A stretch of 32,059 nt of DNA from positions 1 to 32,059 of IMG/VR virus record IMGVR_UViG_3300029910_000069. The stretch is one strand, 5' to 3'. The translations under genes and the position numbers were made by a program. The notes beneath the pieces are model-generated. The model was not told the DNA's origin. It did not search any database and was given only the letters and a program-made list of their open reading frames with translations. Shown here piece by piece: positions 2,738-29,389 of the stretch. This DNA comes from a virus. Every line of letters starts with the position of its first letter. Position 1 is the stretch's first letter.

Positions 2738-5122
<2,385 letters not shown>

Positions 5123-5135
5123 GTCGGGCATCCTC

Positions 5136-5963
5136 TCACGGAACAAGGAGGTTCGGGCTCTGGTACGTCCCTGGCGCTGTCGCAGGAGGGGCGAGAGCCT
5201 TCGCCGCCATCGTCACGAGGCTTCCGGAGCCGGGATCAGGCGCCGCCGGATCGATCAGTGCTGCGATCGCCGAGAGCTGTGGCGCTGTCGCCAGCACGGC
5301 ACCAACCGCTGCGAGCAACGGAAGAACGATCACGAGGTTAGATAGGACGGCGGCGAGATCGATCATGAACTCCGCTCCGCGCACCGTCGTCTGGCCGGAC
5401 TTCGCCAGCGCCTCCATGACTGCGGTCGCAACAGCGACGTGGTCCCCGTAGGAGTGGATCAGAACTCCTCCGTCCGGCCCGAGCGTCCCGTGGTCGGTCG
5501 GGACGTTTCCCCACGGAGCGCCGAACGTCATCAGTCCCGGAAGGAAGACGGAGGACGACAGGTCGAACCGATGGTCGTGAACTGGATCGACTTCGTCGCC
5601 GGTACCAGCCAGCCAGGCGTCGAGGGATTCTTCGGAGGCGATCAGGTAACCCTTCGTCGCCGGTACGAGATCGAGCGTGAGCAGATCGATCAGCGTTCCG
5701 TCGCTGATGGGGAACGTCAACCGCTGTCCGCCTCCGCCAGGGAAGAGGACCGGGATGTTCTGCTCGATCCCGAACGACTCCAGCATCCGGACGTCGGTCT
5801 GGTCGTAGTAGCCGTGCTTCACGAGGGGCTTGACGGACACCCGCTGCGTCTTCGCGTCGTAGCCTGTGACGACGGCAGGGATCGCAGTGTGGACCCCATC
5901 CAACTGGCCGAGGATCTGGAGACGGGCCGACGTCCCTATCGATCTGGCGCGCTGGATGGTCAT
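5136..5963 (-). CDS. Baseplate spike (membrane-puncturing, Gp138-type)
   Basis: This 275-residue protein starts at ATG 5963, overlapping the hub gene by ATGA. The N-terminal 140 residues look like the Gp138 OB-fold spike domain: [19 protein letters not shown], then [22 protein letters not shown]-like spacing and [13 protein letters not shown] Gly-rich turn region (about 155-175: [10 protein letters not shown]) is consistent with the start of a beta-helix. The C-terminal 90 residues are hydrophobic and Ala/Pro-rich ([20 protein letters not shown]). Spikes of this type tip the tail tube and pierce the outer membrane; a Gram-negative host would fit but is not proven. The hub gene upstream is translationally coupled to it. 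Confidence 0.8.
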
Positions 5964-7239: not shown

Positions 7240-7883
7240 CAGGGAGCCACCACTGGAGGTCCGAAGTAACTCTGCTGCGCAGCCGCCAATGCTGCTGCCG
7301 GCGAGCTTGTTCCGATCAGGGTGTGAAGCGTGCTCTCGGCGGGGATGGGAGGCCCAAACGGAACCTCGCCCGGACCGTATCCGCCGCGGACCTTCGGGAG
7401 CGTGTTCTTCGTCTTCGTGATCGCGATGTTGGTGAGCTTGTTCTGAACGATCCGGATGTGGGTGACAGAGAGCGTGAATCGGACGCCGCCGGTTCCGGAG
7501 CCCGGTCCGGCACTCGCCGGCTGGCCTCCGGTCTTCGCGTCTCGCGTTCCAGAGACGTTGGCGACGGCCATCGACGTCAGGAGGCCGAGCGTCGTCGGGA
7601 TGGAGAGGAGCGCGCCCTGGCTCTGCCAAGATCGCAGCGTCGCTATCGCGTCCTCAGCCCGCGTCTGTGCGTCGCCGGCGAACGGAGGGAGCGGGGAGTT
7701 CGTAACGATGCACTCCAGGTTCCACTTATCCGCCTCGGCCCGGATGTTGTCGGTGACGTTGGAGCCCTGCTCGACTGGATGCTCCGTCACCTTCGCCGGG
7801 AATGCGAAGTGCTCCGCCACGACGGCGTCGATGTCCAGCGTTGCGGTCTGCCCGCTCGGAAGCGTCGCGGTGATCGTCGTCAT
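7239..7883 (-). CDS. Dit-like baseplate/tail protein
   Basis: This 214-residue protein starts at ATG 7883, overlapping the tape measure stop by ATGA. It contains HPVEQGSNVTDNIRAEADKW followed by LECIVTNSPLPP, the hallmark pattern of Dit-like proteins in myoviruses. A mid-protein Gly/Pro-rich loop precedes VRFTLSVTHIRIVQNKLTNI, another recurrent strand pair. The C-terminal 60 residues (AESTLHTLIGTSSPAAA...) are extra and low complexity. Dit-like rings connect tube and hub. Confidence 0.8.
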   Translation of the reverse strand: MTTITATLPSGQTATLDIDAVVAEHFAFPAKVTEHPVEQGSNVTDNIRAEADKWNLECIVTNSPLPPFAGDAQTRAEDAIATLRSWQSQGALLSIPTTLGLLTSMAVANVSGTRDAKTGGQPASAGPGSGTGGVRFTLSVTHIRIVQNKLTNIAITKTKNTLPKVRGGYGPGEVPFGPPIPAESTLHTLIGTSSPAAALAAAQQSYFGPPVVAP

Positions 7884-9547
7884 GGCTGACTGTACCCGGC
7901 GTCCGCACCCATATCCTCAGCCGCCTGCTGTATCCCTTCGCGAACGCCGGCCGCGACCTCCCTCTTCACGTCAGCGGGGGTGACCCCGGGAGAAAACGCG
8001 AAGTTCTGATTGATGTTCGCTACGACGCCCCCGCCTCCGCTGCGACCTCCCGGAACCGACGGAGCCAGCGCCTGAGCCTGCAGGAACCCCGGAGAGCTTC
8101 CGAAGTTCGGCGCGATCCACTTCAAGGCGCGATTGAAGTAGTCGCCGAACTGGATCGTCGTCTCCGGATCCGGCGCACGCGGATTGAGTCGCGTGTACTC
8201 AGCCGCCTGTCGATAGCCGGGTGTTTGCCCGACGGTGTCGTTGAGGATCTGGCGCCCCGCGAACCGAACGGCCGTCTCCGCCGGCGACTGGCGCTGGCCA
8301 GGTGGAAGCGCAGCGTTCGCCTCCGACACCCGGCGGAACTCCTGCCACGTCTTGATCAGATCCTTCGTGACGGCAACAGCGGTCTCGAGCGCCTCGAGCC
8401 ACCACGGCTTTTCTTTTCCTTCCGCCCGCAGCTGCCTGTCGAACTTGTCGAGGCCGTCGACGAAGTCTCCGAAAACAGATCTCCCGCCCGAGGCGTAGAC
8501 CCGGAGATCGTCGAACAGCAACAGCAGCCCAGCGACGATCCCTGCGATCGCGATGAACGGTGCGGCAGCGACAAGCCATGCCGCCCCTGCAGCGATAGCG
8601 GCAGCGACCGCTTCAAGCTGCACCGCCAGGAACGACTCGACCAGTCCGGTGTTCGCAAGCGTCCATGCGGCGAGCCCCGAGAGAATGACGGCCATGACTC
8701 CGTTCCAGTTGTCGCGAAAGAACTTCAGGACTCCGACGAATCCGATGAACGCCTTCCCGAGCGCCTTGATCGCGTCGACGCCGATCCCGATGAACTTCGT
8801 CAGGTTCTGACGCATGATCTCAGCATTCGCCTTCCGCCACTCGAGGAACTGCTTCAGCAGATCCCGAATCGCAGGAAGGAGCGGTCCGACCGCGTCACGC
8901 CAGAGCCGTGTCGTCGATTCCGTCAACGCACGCTGGACCTGGATGACTTCCTTCCCTGCCCGGAGTTGATCTTCCGACATGACGGACTGGTCGAAGAACT
9001 CGGAGAGCTCGTCCTTTCCACGGTTCAGGAACTCGATCATCCCTGCGCCGGATCGTCCGAACAGCTGCATCGCGATCGCGGTCTTCTTCGCGCCGTCCTC
9101 CATCCCCTGGAACTTCCCCGCGATGTCGACGAACACGTCTTCGGCCGGCCGGAGCTTCCCTGCAGCATCCGTCGCACGGACTCCGATCGTTGAGAACGCG
9201 GTCTTCGCTTCTTCCGATCCCTTCGTGACCCCGTACATCTGGCGCGACAGGAGCTGGATCGAGTGGGCGAACTCATCGATCCCTATGCCGTCCTCGGCTG
9301 CGGCGCGCGACAGCTGCTGCAGCGACTTCGTTCCAATGCCGGTCGACGCCCCGAGGGAGAGCATCTTCTCACCGTACTCTGCTGACGAAGCGATGTTCTC
9401 GATGAACGTGGCCGTCAGTTCCCGAGCGACCTCGACGACCTTCTCAAGGCCGATCTTCACTCCTTCGGCGGCTAAATTGCCTTTGGCAAAGCTCTGGGCG
9501 TCGACGTCAAGTCCGAGGCGAACGAAGAGTTCTCTCAAAATGCTCAT
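7880..9547 (-). CDS. Tail tape measure protein
   Basis: The 555-residue product starts at ATG 9547, with CTGAGAGG 8 bases upstream. The N-terminal part (about 55-200) has the typical tape-measure sequence YGEKMLSLGASTGIGTKSL, then EEAKTAFSTIGV, then KTAIAMQLFGRSGAGMIEFL. A long hydrophobic region follows at about 283-347 (VMAVILSGLAAW through FIAIAGIVAGLLLLF). Such segments are thought to insert in the host membrane during DNA delivery. At roughly 0.15 nm per residue the length implies a tail near 80 nm, which is short. The C-terminus (GVTPADVKREVAAGVREGIQ) is a typical tape-measure ending. It is coupled to the Dit-like gene. Confidence 0.9.
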   Translation of the reverse strand: MSILRELFVRLGLDVDAQSFAKGNLAAEGVKIGLEKVVEVARELTATFIENIASSAEYGEKMLSLGASTGIGTKSLQQLSRAAAEDGIGIDEFAHSIQLLSRQMYGVTKGSEEAKTAFSTIGVRATDAAGKLRPAEDVFVDIAGKFQGMEDGAKKTAIAMQLFGRSGAGMIEFLNRGKDELSEFFDQSVMSEDQLRAGKEVIQVQRALTESTTRLWRDAVGPLLPAIRDLLKQFLEWRKANAEIMRQNLTKFIGIGVDAIKALGKAFIGFVGVLKFFRDNWNGVMAVILSGLAAWTLANTGLVESFLAVQLEAVAAAIAAGAAWLVAAAPFIAIAGIVAGLLLLFDDLRVYASGGRSVFGDFVDGLDKFDRQLRAEGKEKPWWLEALETAVAVTKDLIKTWQEFRRVSEANAALPPGQRQSPAETAVRFAGRQILNDTVGQTPGYRQAAEYTRLNPRAPDPETTIQFGDYFNRALKWIAPNFGSSPGFLQAQALAPSVPGGRSGGGGVVANINQNFAFSPGVTPADVKREVAAGVREGIQQAAEDMGADAGYSQP

Positions 9548-10178: not shown

Positions 10179-11270
10179 TTAGATCGTGTAGCTGTACCAG
10201 AAGTCGAAGCACTTCGCGCCATCGGCCGCGGTGGTAGGAGCCACGCTGAAGGCCGTGGTGTCGACCGTTCCGACAGTCTCGTCCGTTGGCTTTGCTGCGT
10301 TGCCGGAAGCCGAGACGCCTTCCTTCGACACGACGAAGTTCGTCGCGCCCGCCGGAACCGGAAGCCCGAGATCTACAGCGACTCCGATCCCGAGGTTGTC
10401 GCCGGAGCCACCAGCGCCAGCGAGCGCAGCAACCGTCGCGGACGCCAGCGTCGCGTAGACCTTCGTCGACTTGAACGTCGTTGACGCTGCGCAGATCAGG
10501 GAGATCGTTTCCGTCTGCGCGGATCCGTCAGGTGCGGTTCCGACCAGCGCAATCGTGCCAGCCGTAATGTTGTTCGTCCCCTTCGTGTACCGGACCTGCA
10601 GTTTGGACGGGAACGAGATGGAGTTGGCGATCAGCGTCCGCGCTCCGTTGGCGGACAGCGCCGCTGCCGCCGAGACGGAGATCAGGTCTGCGGCGATGGG
10701 GGCGACGTAGCGAACCCAGGCGCAGATCTTCGTGATCGTAACGCCGGCTGCGACCGCGATGATCGCCGGAGTCGTGGTGTCGAGAACGAAGGTGCTGGTC
10801 ACGTTGGTCAGGAGGAAGGGCTGTCCGCCGAGAGTCGAGCCTTCGTCTCCGGTCGTGATCAGCTTGCCGTCGACGAAGTCGTGCGACGTGTCCGCGTCCC
10901 ACGAACGCTTCATCGTCCACTTGGAGGAAGCTCCACCGATGCTGGTGACGTAGAACAGGCCGCGCTCAAGGCCGGTCGCTGCCGACTTGTCCCAGATGCG
11001 ATCCCCGACAGCGATGGTCACTCCGTCGATGGTTCCCAGCGCTCCGTTTGAGGTCGCGGTCTTCGTCTGCGTTCCCGTGACGTAAGTATTCGCCGGGAGA
11101 GCCGTCGCTGTCATCGCGCGAACCGGACCCCACGCCGCGCTTGAGTTGGTCTGGAGCAGGCTCACCAGCCAGTCGATGAAGACGTAGAGGGGGAGCAGCC
11201 AGGTGTGCCCAATGCTTCGGAGGGTTCGCTGCGATCCGGGAAGTGCGGACTTGGAGTTCGGGAGAGACAT
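10179..11270 (-). CDS. Fibre-like virion protein of unknown role
   Basis: The 363-residue product starts at ATG 11270 with GCAGGAG 8 bases upstream. Residues 1-45 include a hydrophobic helix (WLLPLYVFIDWLVSLLQ). Residues about 47-150 resemble a domain common in phage tail fibres: VRAMTATALPAN, then IDGVTIAVGDRIW, then RGLFYVTSIGGASSKWTMKR and SWDADTSHDFVDG. The rest is Ala/Thr/Ser-rich and beta-prone, with repeated TITKICAWVRYV-like strands. A fibre or tail decoration role is inferred. Its position between chaperone and tape measure is unusual, since these two are normally adjacent. Confidence 0.7.
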   Translation of the reverse strand: MSLPNSKSALPGSQRTLRSIGHTWLLPLYVFIDWLVSLLQTNSSAAWGPVRAMTATALPANTYVTGTQTKTATSNGALGTIDGVTIAVGDRIWDKSAATGLERGLFYVTSIGGASSKWTMKRSWDADTSHDFVDGKLITTGDEGSTLGGQPFLLTNVTSTFVLDTTTPAIIAVAAGVTITKICAWVRYVAPIAADLISVSAAAALSANGARTLIANSISFPSKLQVRYTKGTNNITAGTIALVGTAPDGSAQTETISLICAASTTFKSTKVYATLASATVAALAGAGGSGDNLGIGVAVDLGLPVPAGATNFVVSKEGVSASGNAAKPTDETVGTVDTTAFSVAPTTAADGAKCFDFWYSYTI

Positions 11271-11301: not shown

Positions 11302-11942
11302 TCACTTCGGGGGTGGCAACTCCTCGATCCCGTCGAGAAGTTCGTTCAGGTCTATCACGTCCTGCCGGGTTGCACAGGTCTTCGCCTCGGTGAGTGTCAG
11401 CCAGCCTTTGGCGATGAGCCGGTCGACGGGCCATCGCCAGAGGAGGTGCTCGATCCGTTCGATTGGTCGGGAGCCGGGGATTTCACGGCGCTCCCGCCGC
11501 GGCGGCGAAAAAAATCAGGGAAGTTCTCCTGCACCGCGAACCAGAGGATGGCCCACAGTTCCGAGGTCCGCCCGGCGAACAGTTCGTTGAAGACCTTGTC
11601 ATCCGTCGAAGGCCACATCGGACGGCCGTCGACCGTCGCTTCTCCGCCCTGCAGGAGCCCGTGGATGATCGTCTGGAGATCGCCAGGCCGGAGCGCACCG
11701 ACGATGCTTCCGAGTTCCGCTGCGACGTCCGCTGCCATTTCCGGAGGCAGGGCATCGAGCACGTCGCCGGCGGACATCGATCCGATGGCTGTCGGATCCA
11801 TCAGTTCGGCACCCTTGAGCCGAAGGATCATTCCGAGGGCGCGCCCGACTGCTGGGGCGACAAGCGGTTGAAGGGAGAAGCTCAGGAGCGCAGGAACCGG
11901 ATGGAGGCCGATCGTGCGCCCCCCGACAACTCGGGTCGTCAT
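11302..11942 (-). CDS. Tail assembly chaperone, -1 frameshift product (213 aa)
   Basis: Reading starts at ATG 11942 and follows the zero frame for 145 codons to the run of seven T at 11514-11508 (GAT TTT TTT). A slip of -1 leads into a frame that continues for 68 codons to a TGA at 11302-11304. The extension is protein-like, with SRPIERIEHLLWRWPVDRLI and KTCATRQDVIDLNELLDGIE, and fills the otherwise empty gap before the next gene. Phage lambda G/GT and many myoviruses use the same arrangement to make a minor long chaperone that recruits tape measure and tube proteins. The frameshift is inferred from sequence; its efficiency is unknown. Confidence 0.78.
11397..11942 (-). CDS. Tail assembly chaperone, zero-frame product (181 aa)
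   Basis: The gene starts at ATG 11942, sharing one base with the tube gene stop (TAATG). Residues 1-140 look like a phage tail assembly chaperone: an acidic helical middle, MWPSTDDKVFNELFAG and SELWAILWFAVQENFPDFF, typical of XkdN-type proteins. After the slippery T run the zero frame encodes only a low-complexity Ser/Gly tail (SNGSSTSSGDGPSTGSS), which supports use of the -1 frame as the structured alternative. The position right after sheath and tube is the expected one. Confidence 0.82.
   Translation of the reverse strand: MTTRVVGGRTIGLHPVPALLSFSLQPLVAPAVGRALGMILRLKGAELMDPTAIGSMSAGDVLDALPPEMAADVAAELGSIVGALRPGDLQTIIHGLLQGGEATVDGRPMWPSTDDKVFNELFAGRTSELWAILWFAVQENFPDFFRRRGGSAVKSPAPDQSNGSSTSSGDGPSTGSSPKAG
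11508..11514 (-). promoter_or_regulatory. Slippery heptamer for -1 ribosomal frameshifting
   Basis: On the minus strand the run T-TTT-TTT occupies the X-XXY-YYZ positions of the zero frame. Both tRNAs can re-pair perfectly after a -1 slip. A GC-rich stretch (CGCCGCCGCGGCGGGAGCG) follows at once and can form a GCCGC/GCGGC hairpin that may stall the ribosome. It lies at the boundary between the structured part of the chaperone and its low-complexity zero-frame tail. Confidence 0.75.
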
Positions 11943-12391
11943 TACAGCGGAATCGTCGTCCCGATCTCAGACGCGAGATACGGGCAACGAAGCTCCCACT
12001 CGATGTTCGACGACTCGGTCGCGTACGGCTTCTTCGGGATGCGCTTCAGCCACGCGACGCCGCAACCGGCGATGGAGGTGCCCGTTGGGTCTGTTACTGA
12101 GACGGGGCCGGTCGCAAGGCGCGTCAGGCGGTCGGCGACGGCAACGGCCGACAGGGACGGGTTCGACGGAGACGCGAAGTTCGTGGAGAACTTGATCGTC
12201 CCTCGGCGGTCGGCGCTTAGGATGCGAACGACCTGGCCGTCGGCAGCGACTTCGTCCGCCCACGCATCGACTTCGAAGTCGATCTCAACGAACGTCCCCT
12301 TCGCCATCATCGTCACGACGATCGGGGGGAACCCGGTCGGAGCGAAGGTCAGGATCACCGCTCCCGGTGCGTAGCTCTGCTGGCCGCTCAT
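11942..12391 (-). CDS. Tail tube protein (DUF3277-type)
   Basis: The 149-residue protein begins MSGQQSYAPGAVILTFAPTG at ATG 12391, 10 bases after the sheath stop. It contains GTFVEIDFEVDAWADEVAADG and RGTIKFSTNFASPSNPSL, features of DUF3277-like tubes that partner DUF3383 sheaths. A conserved C-terminal stretch (WLKRIPKKPYATESSNIEWE) matches the ring-ring contact region of tube proteins. The length (about 150) is normal. It is coupled to the chaperone gene by a 1-base overlap. Confidence 0.88.
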   Translation of the reverse strand: MSGQQSYAPGAVILTFAPTGFPPIVVTMMAKGTFVEIDFEVDAWADEVAADGQVVRILSADRRGTIKFSTNFASPSNPSLSAVAVADRLTRLATGPVSVTDPTGTSIAGCGVAWLKRIPKKPYATESSNIEWELRCPYLASEIGTTIPL

Positions 12392-12401
12392 TCGACGCTC
12401 C

Positions 12402-14012
12402 TTACTGGCTGACCTGGACGTTGACGACCATCGTGTTGATCGCGCCCGCTAGCGTGAACGAAGAGACGACCCCGTTCAGGACGCGATTCTGTCGGTCCGT
12501 CGAAGAGACGGATCCGGACGACGGAGCGGTGACGCTCGGAGCAGGGATCCCCGGAGGGCTTCCGGGATTGATTCCGCCGGAGCCAGGGCCAGCGCCAGCC
12601 GGCTTCGCGCCCTGCTCGTTGATCGCCTTCACCATCGCGACGATCATTGCGATTCCGGCGTCCGTGAACGGGATCTTTTCGTTTCCGATCAGGAGGTTGT
12701 CTCCGCCTTCGACGACCTGGGCGACGTACCACCCGAGGAATCGAACGACGTCGATGTACTCACCGAAGCAGGTCAGGCCCTGCCCCTGGACGACGTTGAT
12801 TCCGCCGAGTTCCCCGTACCAGTTCGCGAGGCTCGCGTTGAGGAACGCGATCTGAGACGCCGTGTACTGCTGGCCGTTGCCCCATCCCGACGTGACTCCG
12901 GACAGCGTCTTGTAGAGCCAGTTGTCCCCGCCCGGCGGGATATTGAACCAGCGCCCGATCTCGGCTGCGTCCATGAACTCCGACGCGCGCGGATGGAAGA
13001 TGCCGCCGGTGCCCGTCTCGATCCCGCCGTAGGCTCCGGCCTTCAGGTTCGCTTGCGGTCCGGTACCAGCCGTTGCGTCCGTCGTGTCCGAGGTCGCGAC
13101 GATGTAGAGCTTCTGCTGAGTCGCGATCCACGTCGCGGCGGCGATCACGTAGGCGTTGCTGTTGAGCAGCGTCACGAGACCGTACCAGCCGTTCGTTTCG
13201 TTCTGGCAAGCGGCCAGGTCCGTCGCAAGTCCGCCACCGGAAGGCGCGACGTGGTTCTGCGAAGTCGTGATTAGCGTCGGGTCGTTCGTCTCGACTCCGA
13301 CCCATCCCGTGGCCGTTCCGGTCACGAGCAGCGTCTTCGACCCGGCCGATCCGATCACGGTCGGAGTAGCGGTCGGGAGATCCGTTAGCGCGGTGATCGC
13401 GGCCTTCAGCCCGAGGCAGATCGCGTCGTTCTGCGCCTGAGCGTTCGTGAGCGTGTTGGCCCCGATGTAGAGGTACGTCAGACCGCCGACGGTCTGCGAC
13501 GCTGACGTTCCGGTCGGGCCGGCGGAATCGGAATCGGTGCCGCCGACGGAGACGAAGTAGAACTTCCCGGTATCGGCCGTAACGACGTCGCCAGTCGGAA
13601 AGGTGCCGCTCGCAACGAACGCCGTGACTGTCGGCGCAACGTAGGTTGCAGCCTGCCTGTTAGCGGCGCCCGTCGGGTCGCTGATCCAGAGGGTGTACGA
13701 CGCTCCCGCGATCACCTGGGCGACGACCGCTCCCCAAGTCTGCGTCGTCGGGTTCGTCAGTGCGCGGCCGATGTAGAGAGCCTGAAGCTGTGGGTTCTGT
13801 CCGAACGCCTTCGCGGCTGCGTTGTACGCGGCGGTCGTCGCACCCCAATCGGCCAGAACTTCGTCCGCCGAGTCGTAGAGGCGGGTTCGGGTCGTCCAGG
13901 CGGAAGGATCGAGAGGGAGTTCCTGCGTCAGGATCAGCGGCGTTCCGAATCCCTCTTCCGTCACTCCTGGCTGGGAGAGAGAGACGTTCACCGTTACCGG
14001 ATTCGATCCCAC
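12402..14012 (-). CDS. Tail sheath protein (DUF3383-type)
   Basis: The gene starts at GTG 14012 (GAGGTG 5 bases upstream) and encodes 536 residues. The N-terminus (NPVTVNVSLSQPGVTEEGFG) and the segment VLADWGATTAAYNAAAKAF followed by FGQNPQLQALYIGRAL are strong signatures of DUF3383 sheaths. The central part (about 130-330) is a Thr/Gly-rich beta insert. The C-terminal third (ANWYGELGGINVVQGQGL, then VVRFLGWYVAQVVEGG, and a final FTLAGAINTMVVNVQV) is the sheath core that interlocks subunits. Contraction of this sheath drives the tube through the cell envelope. Confidence 0.92.
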   Translation of the reverse strand: MGSNPVTVNVSLSQPGVTEEGFGTPLILTQELPLDPSAWTTRTRLYDSADEVLADWGATTAAYNAAAKAFGQNPQLQALYIGRALTNPTTQTWGAVVAQVIAGASYTLWISDPTGAANRQAATYVAPTVTAFVASGTFPTGDVVTADTGKFYFVSVGGTDSDSAGPTGTSASQTVGGLTYLYIGANTLTNAQAQNDAICLGLKAAITALTDLPTATPTVIGSAGSKTLLVTGTATGWVGVETNDPTLITTSQNHVAPSGGGLATDLAACQNETNGWYGLVTLLNSNAYVIAAATWIATQQKLYIVATSDTTDATAGTGPQANLKAGAYGGIETGTGGIFHPRASEFMDAAEIGRWFNIPPGGDNWLYKTLSGVTSGWGNGQQYTASQIAFLNASLANWYGELGGINVVQGQGLTCFGEYIDVVRFLGWYVAQVVEGGDNLLIGNEKIPFTDAGIAMIVAMVKAINEQGAKPAGAGPGSGGINPGSPPGIPAPSVTAPSSGSVSSTDRQNRVLNGVVSSFTLAGAINTMVVNVQVSQ

Positions 14013-26144: not shown

Positions 26145-27086
26145 CTACGCCAATAGAGGGCTGAAATCCGGGTCGGGGTAGCAACGGCAAGGCCCGATCC
26201 CGCTGCCGGGGTGCCCCGTCTCGTCCTCGTTTGTCCCGCCCCCCATAGGGGGATCGTCCCATGTGCATCGGACGCCTTCGAGGTCGAGGTGACACTGTCG
26301 CTCGCGCGGGTCCTGGACTCCCCTCCAGAAGTAGCCGTCGATCCCGAGAGCCGAGATTCGCGCTTCGTTAAGCTTGCCGTTGAGCTGCGCGACGGACGTA
26401 CCCGCGATCCGCTTCGCGTCGCTTTGGCTGCTCCCGTACCGAGTAGCCATCTTCTTCGCGAGAGTGTCCGTCGCCATGCCCGACGAGTAGGCGTCCTCGA
26501 TGTCGCCTCGGAGTCGGTCGAAATAGCGCTCGGGGACCGTCTTGATGAACGCGACGTTCTCGGTCGTCCAGGCGGCGACGTGGTCCCTGATCGGCTTCTC
26601 GATCGATCCGTACTGGAGCCCGGTCGCTGCCCGGAGTTGACGGTCGAGCTGCTCTCGCTGGTGGACGTCGATCCGGTGCCCGAACTTCGTCGGGAGTTCC
26701 TTCAGCGCTTCCCAATCGAAGGCATCGTCGAACGTGTTCTGTGCGACGGCCGCAAGGTGGAGAGCTCGGCGCGCATCCAGGGCGACGGAGCGGTTCTTCC
26801 ATTCGGTCGGTCCCGGAAGTTGGTGGGGGAACCAGCGCTTCCGGTCCGGCGGAGCGGCGTCCATCCCGTTCGTCCGGCGTTGTGCCGACAGGTCTTTGAG
26901 GATCTCCTGTTCGACCTCCGCGAACGCGGCGCGCGCCCGATCGCAGATCGGTTCGATGGCGCGGTAGTACGAAAGCTCGATCGCCGTCGGAGGGATCGGT
27001 TTCGGAGCCCGGCGGAGCCTGCTCTTCGGTCGGAGCGCGGTTAGCTTGCGCGCCAGCGCGATCGTCCCGGCGCGGTCCAGTATCAC
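26145..27086 (-). CDS. Head morphogenesis protein, MuF / SPP1 gp7-like
   Basis: The gene starts at GTG 27086, overlapping the portal stop by GTGA. The 313-residue product has a helical N-terminus (ELSYYRAIEPICDRARAAFA) and the MuF core: TENVAFIKTVPERYFDRLRG, then DTLAKKMATRYGSSQSDAKR and IAGTSVAQLNGKLNEARI. The conserved end is present (RGVQDPRERQCHLDLEGVRC and PPMGGG...HPGSGIGPCRC), the typical Cys/His pattern. MuF proteins enter the prohead with the portal and may be ejected with DNA. No toxin domain is attached here. Confidence 0.9.
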   Translation of the reverse strand: MILDRAGTIALARKLTALRPKSRLRRAPKPIPPTAIELSYYRAIEPICDRARAAFAEVEQEILKDLSAQRRTNGMDAAPPDRKRWFPHQLPGPTEWKNRSVALDARRALHLAAVAQNTFDDAFDWEALKELPTKFGHRIDVHQREQLDRQLRAATGLQYGSIEKPIRDHVAAWTTENVAFIKTVPERYFDRLRGDIEDAYSSGMATDTLAKKMATRYGSSQSDAKRIAGTSVAQLNGKLNEARISALGIDGYFWRGVQDPRERQCHLDLEGVRCTWDDPPMGGGTNEDETGHPGSGIGPCRCYPDPDFSPLLA

Positions 27087-29389
27087 GTTCGCCGCCGGAG
27101 CATCGGTCCTACCACGTCTCGTTCGTGTTTCAGGTTCGCCTTCACGTCGTCCGGGTACCGGCCGTTCGGAACCGGGACGCGGCGGAACGCCGTGAACTCC
27201 TTGTCCGGGTCGTTCGCGTTCGTCGGCTCGCCTTCGACCAGCGCGCGATAGACGGAGACGTGTTTCTGCGCCATCGACCCGCCGACGGTCTTCATCCCGA
27301 TCAGCGCGATCCTCTTCGGGTGAAGGCCCGTCTCTTCCCAGAGTTCACGGATCGCGCAGGAGAGCGGATCTTCGCCGGGCTCCGCGTGGCCTCCCGGATG
27401 ACACATCTTCCCCGTCTCCCGGTCGGTCCCCATGATCAGGTTCCCGTCGGGGTCGAACGCGGCGACGACGGAGCAGGCGGAGCGAACCTTCGTCCGTCCG
27501 TTCTTCGTAACGAAGTCGGCGGCGTCCTGCGTCGGTGCCGGCGGCGCGCCCGGAACCCTCAGCGCCTTGGGTGGACTAGATCCGCCAGCGGCCGGGTCAG
27601 GTAGTCCACCTGTCGGATCTGGCGGGGCGGGAGGCTCCGGTGCCGTCGCTTCCTTCTGGGCCATCATCTTCCGGCCTTCGAGGTCGAGGACGATCGGGCC
27701 GTCGTTGAAGTCCGAACCGCCGAAGCGCGTGCTCGCCACTTCCTCCGGCGTTGCGATCCCCTTGTCGACGTAGATCTGGTCGGTCTGCGCGATCTTGTAC
27801 CGATAGTCCGCCCGCGCGGTGTCGGTCATTTCGCGCAGCGGGTTCATCGTCACGGTCCAGCGCTTCGGCGGCTTCCCGTTGGCGACTCCCTGCGACGCGG
27901 CGAGCTGGAGCCCGATGAACTTCCGAAGGTTGGGGAGCAGCTGCTGCTTCTGACGGCCGGCGTTCTGATCGTCGAAGATGTCCTGGTCGCCCTTGCCCGT
28001 GTCCCCGAGTCCGCCCTTGCCCTGGTTCAGCAGGAGCGACGCAGGCATGTCCGCAGCGCCGGCCAGCTGCAGCGCGAACTCCCGCTGGATGTCGGCGACG
28101 CCGCCCAGGTCCAACTTCACGCGCTCGAGCGTCTCCTTCGAGTCGATGATCCGGGTCTTCGCGATCGACATCGACATCGACATCGCAATCGCGCGCGACT
28201 GGATGACCCCGACGTCGTCTTCGTCCTCCGACGCCATCATCCGGGAGAAACCGTCCATCTTCAGGACTGGAAGCCCGAGCTCCGAGAGCAGGATCGCGAT
28301 GCCGTTCCAGCTTTGCTCGTACTGCGAGAGGACTTGGTTGATCCTCATCCAGATCGAGTCGCCGGCGCCGCGCATCTGGACGCGTGCCCAATGCGAGACC
28401 GTCTGACCGGGGAACATCAGCAGCCGGGATTCGTGGACGTAGAAGATCAGAGCTCCGGGCTTCCCAGCCGGCGGTACCTGCGACGCTGGCTCGCCTGGCG
28501 TCGGGAGCGCGACCGTCACGCCCAGGTTGCGAAGCTGATAGGTGCGCGGCATTCCGAACTTCGGATCGCGCGGGTCGACGTACCAGCTCCAGCCGATCAA
28601 CTCGCCGTCCCAGCCGCCCTGGAACGCCGTCAGGTGAGTGATCCGCTTCACCTTCTTCCAGTCGAGAGGGATGGTCAGGTTCGGCTCCCCGTCGTCGACG
28701 CCGATCAGGATTCCGCCGCTGCCGTAGTTTCGTTCGTAGCAAAGGGCGTCGAAGAAGGCGCGCCCGAGCCCGAGCTTCTCCTGTTCGTCGACCAGCGCTT
28801 CAATCAGCGCCGTGTTCTCGTCGCTCACTTCGGGAAGCTCGCCCGGCGTGTGCTGCGACTGCGCGACCGCTCCAGGGGCCTTCGCTGCTTCGGGAGCGGC
28901 GCCAGCCGGCGGGAGATCGTCCAGCCGACCAGTGGTGCTCCTCGAGGCGATGCGGCGCGCAGCGCGTCGGGCGTCCCGGCGATCGGCGTGGCCCTGCTGC
29001 TCGTCCTCTTCAGGCTGGATAGAGACCGTCCAGCCGCGGCGGGTCATTTCGCGCGGGATCGTCTCGATGATGCGACCGCCCAGCGCGGAGCCGCGCCAGC
29101 GCTCCTGCATCTGCCAGCCGGACAAGAACTGATTGAAGAAGTCGGGGCCGTTCCATTGCCCGCCGTACGTCTTGTCCCGAGCCGGGTCGCCGATGCCGGT
29201 CAGGCGGTTCTGGTACCCGTCGACGACCTGCCGGAGGTTGCGGTCCAGGGCCGCCCGGTTGCCCCAAGCGCCGTCTTCGTCGCGCAGGACGACCAGCTTG
29301 TCGCCTCCGACCTCATGCAGCGGGATCGGGTCGCTGGGGGAGTAGCCGTCGATCTGGTCAACGACTCGACGTGTCTTCGGATCGCCCAT
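27083..29389 (-). CDS. Portal protein (DUF1073-type) fused to a C-terminal Nudix hydrolase domain
   Basis: The 768-residue frame starts at ATG 29389. Residues about 75-580 are a DUF1073-like portal: SGWQMQERWRGSALGGRIIE, ETIPREMTRRGWTVSI, RAFFDALCYERNYGSGGILI, SQYEQSWNGIAILLSELGLP, AGAADMPASLLLNQGKGGLG. A Pro-rich linker (about 582-628) joins a Nudix domain at about 635-755. Its box is complete: G667, E673 and R681-E682-L683-W684-E685-E686-T687-G688-L689 fit GX5EX7REUXEEXGU. Nudix enzymes cleave nucleoside diphosphates linked to X. To my knowledge other DUF1073 portals carry a fused anti-CBASS phosphodiesterase, so an anti-defence role is one possibility. No clear ribosome site is seen. Confidence 0.9.
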   Translation of the reverse strand: MGDPKTRRVVDQIDGYSPSDPIPLHEVGGDKLVVLRDEDGAWGNRAALDRNLRQVVDGYQNRLTGIGDPARDKTYGGQWNGPDFFNQFLSGWQMQERWRGSALGGRIIETIPREMTRRGWTVSIQPEEDEQQGHADRRDARRAARRIASRSTTGRLDDLPPAGAAPEAAKAPGAVAQSQHTPGELPEVSDENTALIEALVDEQEKLGLGRAFFDALCYERNYGSGGILIGVDDGEPNLTIPLDWKKVKRITHLTAFQGGWDGELIGWSWYVDPRDPKFGMPRTYQLRNLGVTVALPTPGEPASQVPPAGKPGALIFYVHESRLLMFPGQTVSHWARVQMRGAGDSIWMRINQVLSQYEQSWNGIAILLSELGLPVLKMDGFSRMMASEDEDDVGVIQSRAIAMSMSMSIAKTRIIDSKETLERVKLDLGGVADIQREFALQLAGAADMPASLLLNQGKGGLGDTGKGDQDIFDDQNAGRQKQQLLPNLRKFIGLQLAASQGVANGKPPKRWTVTMNPLREMTDTARADYRYKIAQTDQIYVDKGIATPEEVASTRFGGSDFNDGPIVLDLEGRKMMAQKEATAPEPPAPPDPTGGLPDPAAGGSSPPKALRVPGAPPAPTQDAADFVTKNGRTKVRSACSVVAAFDPDGNLIMGTDRETGKMCHPGGHAEPGEDPLSCAIRELWEETGLHPKRIALIGMKTVGGSMAQKHVSVYRALVEGEPTNANDPDKEFTAFRRVPVPNGRYPDDVKANLKHERDVVGPMLRRRT

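Follow-up and report, generated by a model that had tools for sequence, protein, structure and literature searches.

The tail gene region and the chaperone locus

The window, meaning the whole stretch of DNA that was analysed, is a virus record of 32,059 bases. The minus strand carries its structural genes, in the order terminase, portal, head genes, tail sheath, tube-like gene, chaperone, a 363-aa gene, small open reading frames (ORFs), tape measure, and baseplate genes. The chaperone gene is thereby flanked by the tube-like gene on its upstream side and the tape measure gene on its downstream side, with the 363-aa gene and the small ORFs preceding the latter. By comparison with relatives, the product of the tube-like gene would take the role of the tail tube protein, and the tape measure protein is the expected partner of the chaperone. 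The coordinates of the features are given in Table 1.

Table 1. Features of the chaperone locus and of the neighbouring tail genes in the window
Feature	Coordinates	Strand	Evidence
Zero-frame tail assembly chaperone (TAC-N), 181 aa	11397..11942	-	PF21822 Phage_TAC_15 and phrog_1613
-1 frame extension (TAC-C): FF, 68 residues, and stop	11302..11514	-	Translation; extension profiles of relatives
Slippery heptamer T_TTT_TTT over codons 143-145 of 181 (GAT TTT TTT)	11508..11514	-	Sequence
CAGGAGA, Shine-Dalgarno-like, 10 nt upstream of the heptamer	11525..11531	-	Best anti-SD duplex, -7.4 kcal/mol
Tail tube-like gene, directly upstream of the chaperone gene	11942..12391	-	phrog_280 virion structural protein, E 8.2e-21; PF11681 KPP10 structural protein, E 1e-7
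Tail sheath gene	12402..14012	-	phrog_205 tail sheath, E 1.3e-72
Tape measure gene	7880..9547	-	phrog_8462 tape measure, E 7.3e-29; PF10145, E 5.4e-9

Other genes of this record have features of their own. The 363-aa gene (10179-11270, minus strand) separates the chaperone extension from the tape measure, whereas in relatives the tape measure follows at once as the next long ORF. Part of its sequence is 27-33% identical to tail fibre segments of marine phages, and one weak relative was found in IMG/VR. The portal protein (27083-29389, minus strand) matches PF06381 at residues 190-539 and has a NUDIX domain at its C terminus (PF00293, residues 637-740, E 2.6e-16), a fusion that appeared unusual. 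At 2738-5146, also on the minus strand, a protein of 802 aa is encoded that has collagen-like repeats and matches a carbohydrate-binding module below threshold; it is likely a tail fibre.

The zero-frame chaperone and its slip site

TAC-N is the sole protein of the record that matches Phage_TAC_15 (E 6e-13, 49.9 bits against a cut-off of 22), and its match to the tail assembly chaperone group phrog_1613 has an E-value of 3.2e-7. Its predicted model had no counterpart in the PDB when compared by Foldseek at E up to 0.001. The folded part comprises approximately residues 1-146 and is followed by a tail that is predicted to be disordered. In the AlphaFold model, the final predicted helix stops at residue 146, pLDDT lies below 50 at residues 150-162, and the tail has low confidence. 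The initial annotation had described a Ser/Gly-rich tail in this frame, and Ser or Gly indeed accounts for 17 of the 36 residues after the Phe-Phe pair.

The slip site reads GAT TTT TTT CGC, which gives T_TTT_TTT in the phase X_XXY_YYZ. This agrees with the run of seven T and the phase originally proposed, to which it can be added that the whole feature lies on the minus strand. Because the low-confidence tail follows the final predicted helix, the shift is placed at the end of the folded domain. The heptamer is also the only run of seven T or seven A in the window. Since shuffled sequences are expected to contain 0.54 such runs, the presence of one somewhere in the window is unsurprising; it is the place of the run that is surprising. 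Moreover, the 17 other genes examined in the window use TTC for phenylalanine 207 times and TTT 17 times (17/224 TTT), and none of their 12 Phe-Phe pairs is written as TTT TTT. The TTT codons of the slip site are therefore out of character for this virus.

Elements that could stimulate a shift were sought on both sides of the heptamer. The spacing of 10 nt between the Shine-Dalgarno-like CAGGAGA and the heptamer resembles that of dnaX. The anti-SD duplex of this element ranks 12th among 163 places in its own gene, and comparable strength is not equally kept in relatives; CAGGAGA is a possible stimulator. On the 3' side of the slip site, the RNA has no unusual structure (z of -1.09 and -0.36), and the search for a stimulatory RNA element yielded no support for one. 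In E. coli, U_UUU_UUU is described as a weaker shift site than A_AAA_AAG (PMC5009743).

The extension encoded in the -1 frame

Translation through the heptamer into the -1 frame gives 143 residues, the Phe-Phe pair, and 68 further residues, that is, a product of 213 aa. Both lengths claimed in the initial annotation, 181 and 213 residues with a 68-residue extension, are thus reproduced. The -1 frame continues 95 nt beyond the zero-frame stop, and 31 nt separate its own stop from the next ORF, the 363-aa gene. The openness of this frame proves little, because 33.5% of 680 comparable readings, begun in the -1 frame 20-59 codons before the stops of 17 window genes, extend at least 95 nt past the stop. 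In other words, the open frame in this window is weak evidence by itself.

A codon-usage score computed in all six frames is highest for the zero frame upstream of the slip site and for the -1 frame past the zero-frame stop. In the overlap the best score belongs to an antisense frame, and the score of the -1 frame exceeds that of the zero frame. The predicted structure of the extension consists of a disordered linker of approximately 20 residues and four short helices, at middling confidence (mean pLDDT 66.7). Foldseek found no match of this model in the PDB at E up to 0.001, and the extension matched no Pfam family at E up to 1.

The -1 ORF could also be a small gene with its own start, or a stretch that is never translated, and the records of several relatives would agree with this, as they annotate a separate hypothetical gene at this place or leave it unannotated. 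However, the only start codons within the window's -1 ORF are a GTG and a TTG, located 18 and 5 codons before the stop, so that the ORF is hardly a gene of its own. Homology to the extensions of relatives begins upstream of both codons, and selection on those extensions, described below, also argues against an untranslated stretch. The chance that the -1 ORF is a separate gene or is untranslated is negligible.

Conservation of the frame arrangement in relatives

With the window chaperone as query, tblastn at 1e-5 revealed no close relative among 50,697 phage records, and the chaperone alone found no relative in IMG/VR or GTDB contigs. The tube or sheath protein as query likewise gave no relative in IMG/VR. 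A weak match to the window chaperone (E 2e-3) was found in MW202455 (ctfzr933), which carries T_TTT_TTT at the same place and whose -1 frame ends at the start of the tape measure gene. Relatives were reached through this record, next with its chaperone as query, and next with alignments. The resulting sample comprises 26 loci, each on a separate IMG/VR or GTDB contig, from which second copies (L015, L025, L026, L029, L030, and L041) had been removed before counting. Loci with identical extensions (L018 and L017; L033 and L032; L024, L043, and L019) were counted as loci and not as distinct extensions.

The terminase route gave three further IMG/VR contigs (L003, L004, and L005), but the slip site lies outside them. 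Because their terminase protein is 100% identical to that of the window over the matched part, the same or a very near virus is, by this measure, present in these three records. Rhizobium phage RHph_N28_2 was the best terminase match; it lacks an annotated sheath, and the comparison left its tail genes out. A stretch of Limnohabitans phage DC31 was also left out of the comparison.

Every one of the 26 loci has a -1 extension that continues beyond the zero-frame stop; in L037, the contig ends before the extension does. At the position that corresponds to the NFPDFF of the window, T_TTT_TTN is present in 23 of them (14/14 and 9/12 in two sets). One of six search patterns in one search and one of two in another lay over the Phe-Phe site, at the amino-acid level and with either Phe codon allowed. 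The remaining three loci differ at this position: L038 has G_GGT_TTC, L031 has a GTTTTA stretch, and no heptamer was recognised in L042. Each of them matches PF21822, and their -1 frames resemble those of the other loci. The -1 stop lies between -26 and +11 nt from the next long ORF in 22 of the 26 loci, those in which this distance was measurable. Outside this sample, T_TTT_TTN occurs in L006, L007, L008, L046, L047, and L051, and GTTTTT in L002 and L010, while L045, L048, and L052 lack a site with six T.

The zero-frame tails of seven loci (L012, L016, L017, L020, L023, L036, and L037) share a Thr-Ser-(Thr/Pro)-Gly-like motif, which overlies a conserved Asn-x-x-Trp or similar stretch of the -1 frame. 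This motif may be a shadow of coding in the -1 frame, as may the Ser/Gly-rich zero-frame tail itself.

These comparisons bear on the question of whether the shift lies in the gene at all. If the run of seven T were miscalled in sequencing or assembly, or had recently gained or lost a base, the true gene would either be uninterrupted or be broken. The slip site is the one place in the window with such a homopolymer, and no second assembly of the virus that covers it was found, as L003-L005, judged by their lengths, end short of it. Such an error would nevertheless have to recreate both the frame arrangement seen in 26/26 relatives and the kind of heptamer seen in 23/26, which makes it extremely unlikely.

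The relatives are also informative about the kind of slippage. RNA polymerase might add an extra U at the run of seven T, so that part of the mRNA would encode the long protein; the homopolymer is in place, and there are precedents in dnaX of Thermus and in type III secretion genes (PMC5009743). Most relatives, however, have only six T, and some carry at the same place in-phase heptamers without a long homopolymer, namely G_GGT_TTC in L038, G_GGA_AAT in L048, and C_CCT_TTT in L052, which fit re-pairing of tRNAs instead. On account of these heptamers, slippage of the ribosome is favoured over slippage of the polymerase, and the latter is very unlikely to be the source of the long product.

Homology of the extension and selection

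A profile built from the extensions of 15 relatives ranked the -1 ORF of the window first among 543 six-frame ORFs (E 4.6e-4; the next at 1.5). With a profile of 21 distinct extensions, it was again first (E 5.4e-4; the next at 0.5), and none of 1000 shuffles of the extension reached its score. The nearest extension, that of L028, is 37.7% identical over 61 columns, and used as a query it matched only the -1 ORF in the whole window (E 1.2e-4). Smaller profiles were weak, with E-values of 0.21 for 4 sequences and 0.03 for 5, although the window ORF ranked first in both. A profile of 8 sequences that included Pseudomonas and Citrobacter phages placed it second. When L027 and L028 were removed, the window ORF was first at E 0.03, and a profile of L027, L028, and L007 alone ranked it first at 2.5e-4 with another ORF near, at 7.4e-4.

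For 12 pairs of related loci, selection was assessed on the part of the extension beyond the zero-frame stop. In seven pairs, dN/dS was 0.05-0.21; four pairs were synonymously saturated, with pN of 0.17-0.19, and one was identical. These values indicate purifying selection on the extensions of the relatives past the zero-frame stop, a statement about the relatives only, as the window extension has no close relative. In the overlap region of the relatives, substitutions as a rule do not separate the frames or clearly favour the -1 frame.

According to the initial annotation, a -1 frame that is not conserved among homologues would refute the reading. Conservation is instead seen at the slip site, in its phase, and in the domain encoded in the -1 frame, with purifying selection in relatives, and the proposed frameshift of the lambda G/GT type gains support from the conserved site, phase, and extension. 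It is this comparative evidence that is decisive for the frameshift reading.

A Pfam domain of unknown function in the -1 frame

The extensions of several relatives match DUF6889 (PF21829), a Pfam domain listed as being of unknown function. Matches above the cut-off were obtained with the extensions of L012 and L017, of Psychrobacter phage pOW20-A (L045; E 1.5e-6), and of Acinetobacter phage A785.1 (L048; E 2.4e-20); the extension of Rhizobium phage RHph_N17 had no match above the cut-off. Among 27 records, which had been chosen by their chaperones, 14 contain a match at E up to 0.01, one each, and 11 of these are above the cut-off. By coordinates, all 14 matches lie inside the -1 extension.

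In 398 genomes of one phylum, searched without the chaperone as bait, DUF6889 was found in two further genomes, L052 and L051. In both, the domain is read in the -1 frame where a gene of the PF21822 family ends (PF21822 match at E 9e-28 in L052 and 4.3e-27 in L051), and the heptamers at the overlap are C_CCT_TTT in L052 and GGGAAATTTTTTG in L051. Among 369 genomes of one class, only an already known genome contained the domain. No paper on DUF6889 was found in the open-access literature. DUF6889 proteins belong to proviruses and temperate phages, and in the relatives the domain follows a PF21822 chaperone and is read in the -1 frame. The extension of the window has no DUF6889 match; it is too divergent for this model and is not assigned to PF21829. 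DUF6889 is very probably the C-terminal, -1-frame-encoded domain of PF21822 chaperones and the counterpart of lambda T, of which the window would carry a diverged form.

Proposed mechanism and known systems

The reading that is preferred, with a probability of roughly 0.93, is that one gene would yield two tail assembly chaperones through -1 slippage of the ribosome on T_TTT_TTT. Its direct support comes from the site, the phase, the lack of a usable start in the -1 frame, the homology of the -1 ORF to relatives, and the selection on the extensions of relatives. From a single start, the majority of ribosomes would stay in the zero frame and produce the 181-aa TAC-N. In a minority, the two Phe tRNAs on TTT TTT would slip one base back, giving the 213-aa TAC-NC, whose final 68 residues would contain a small helical domain. 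If lambda G/GT is taken as the model, TAC-N would coat the tape measure protein and the TAC-C domain would recruit tail tube subunits. The ribosomal nature and the rate of the slippage are inferred, as are the functions given here to both products.

Phage lambda, whose slip site is G_GGA_AAG, is siphoviral, whereas the phage of the window has a contractile tail. The two are alike in that lambda gpG and gpGT, as proposed here for the window products, are a short and a -1-shifted long chaperone from one gene, the long form of lambda being made in the minority (PMC5009743). According to the same source, the part that attaches to the tape measure is common to both lambda forms, and the tube protein is bound by the -1 domain (PMC5009743).

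Closer counterparts exist among phages with contractile tails. A conserved -1 frameshift is reported for the chaperones of Vandenendeviridae, with the GTTTTT motif also in Andersonviridae (PMC12846349), and tail assembly chaperones are given as the main training case of PRFect (PMC10885494). In these two families, represented by Pseudomonas phage Adele and Citrobacter phage Moogle, the shift is described at a poly-T near the 3' end of TAC-N, the extension is open to the next gene, and a sheath gene lies upstream, as in the window. The chaperones of Moogle and of Pseudomonas phage Ab03 belong to PF21822, the same family as that of the window. The families differ from the window in the reported motif, which is GTTTTT and not T_TTT_TTT, and in the extension, which reaches the tape measure gene, whereas in the window the 363-aa gene intervenes; sequence identity between them and the window is low. 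The initial annotation had also expected the feature to be missed by ordinary annotation. This holds for several relatives, but the mechanism has been published for related phages (PMC12846349), and in the record of Moogle the chaperone is annotated as a joined gene.

The window is thus a further case of a known chaperone frameshift, in a divergent uncultured lineage. It extends this mode of expression to contractile-tailed phages far from those described. The slip-site set T_TTT_TTN, together with the variants G_GGT_TTC, G_GGA_AAT, and C_CCT_TTT at the same place, could be of use to gene callers. Additionally, the comparison would give a role to DUF6889, as the part of the long chaperone that is reached by the shift.
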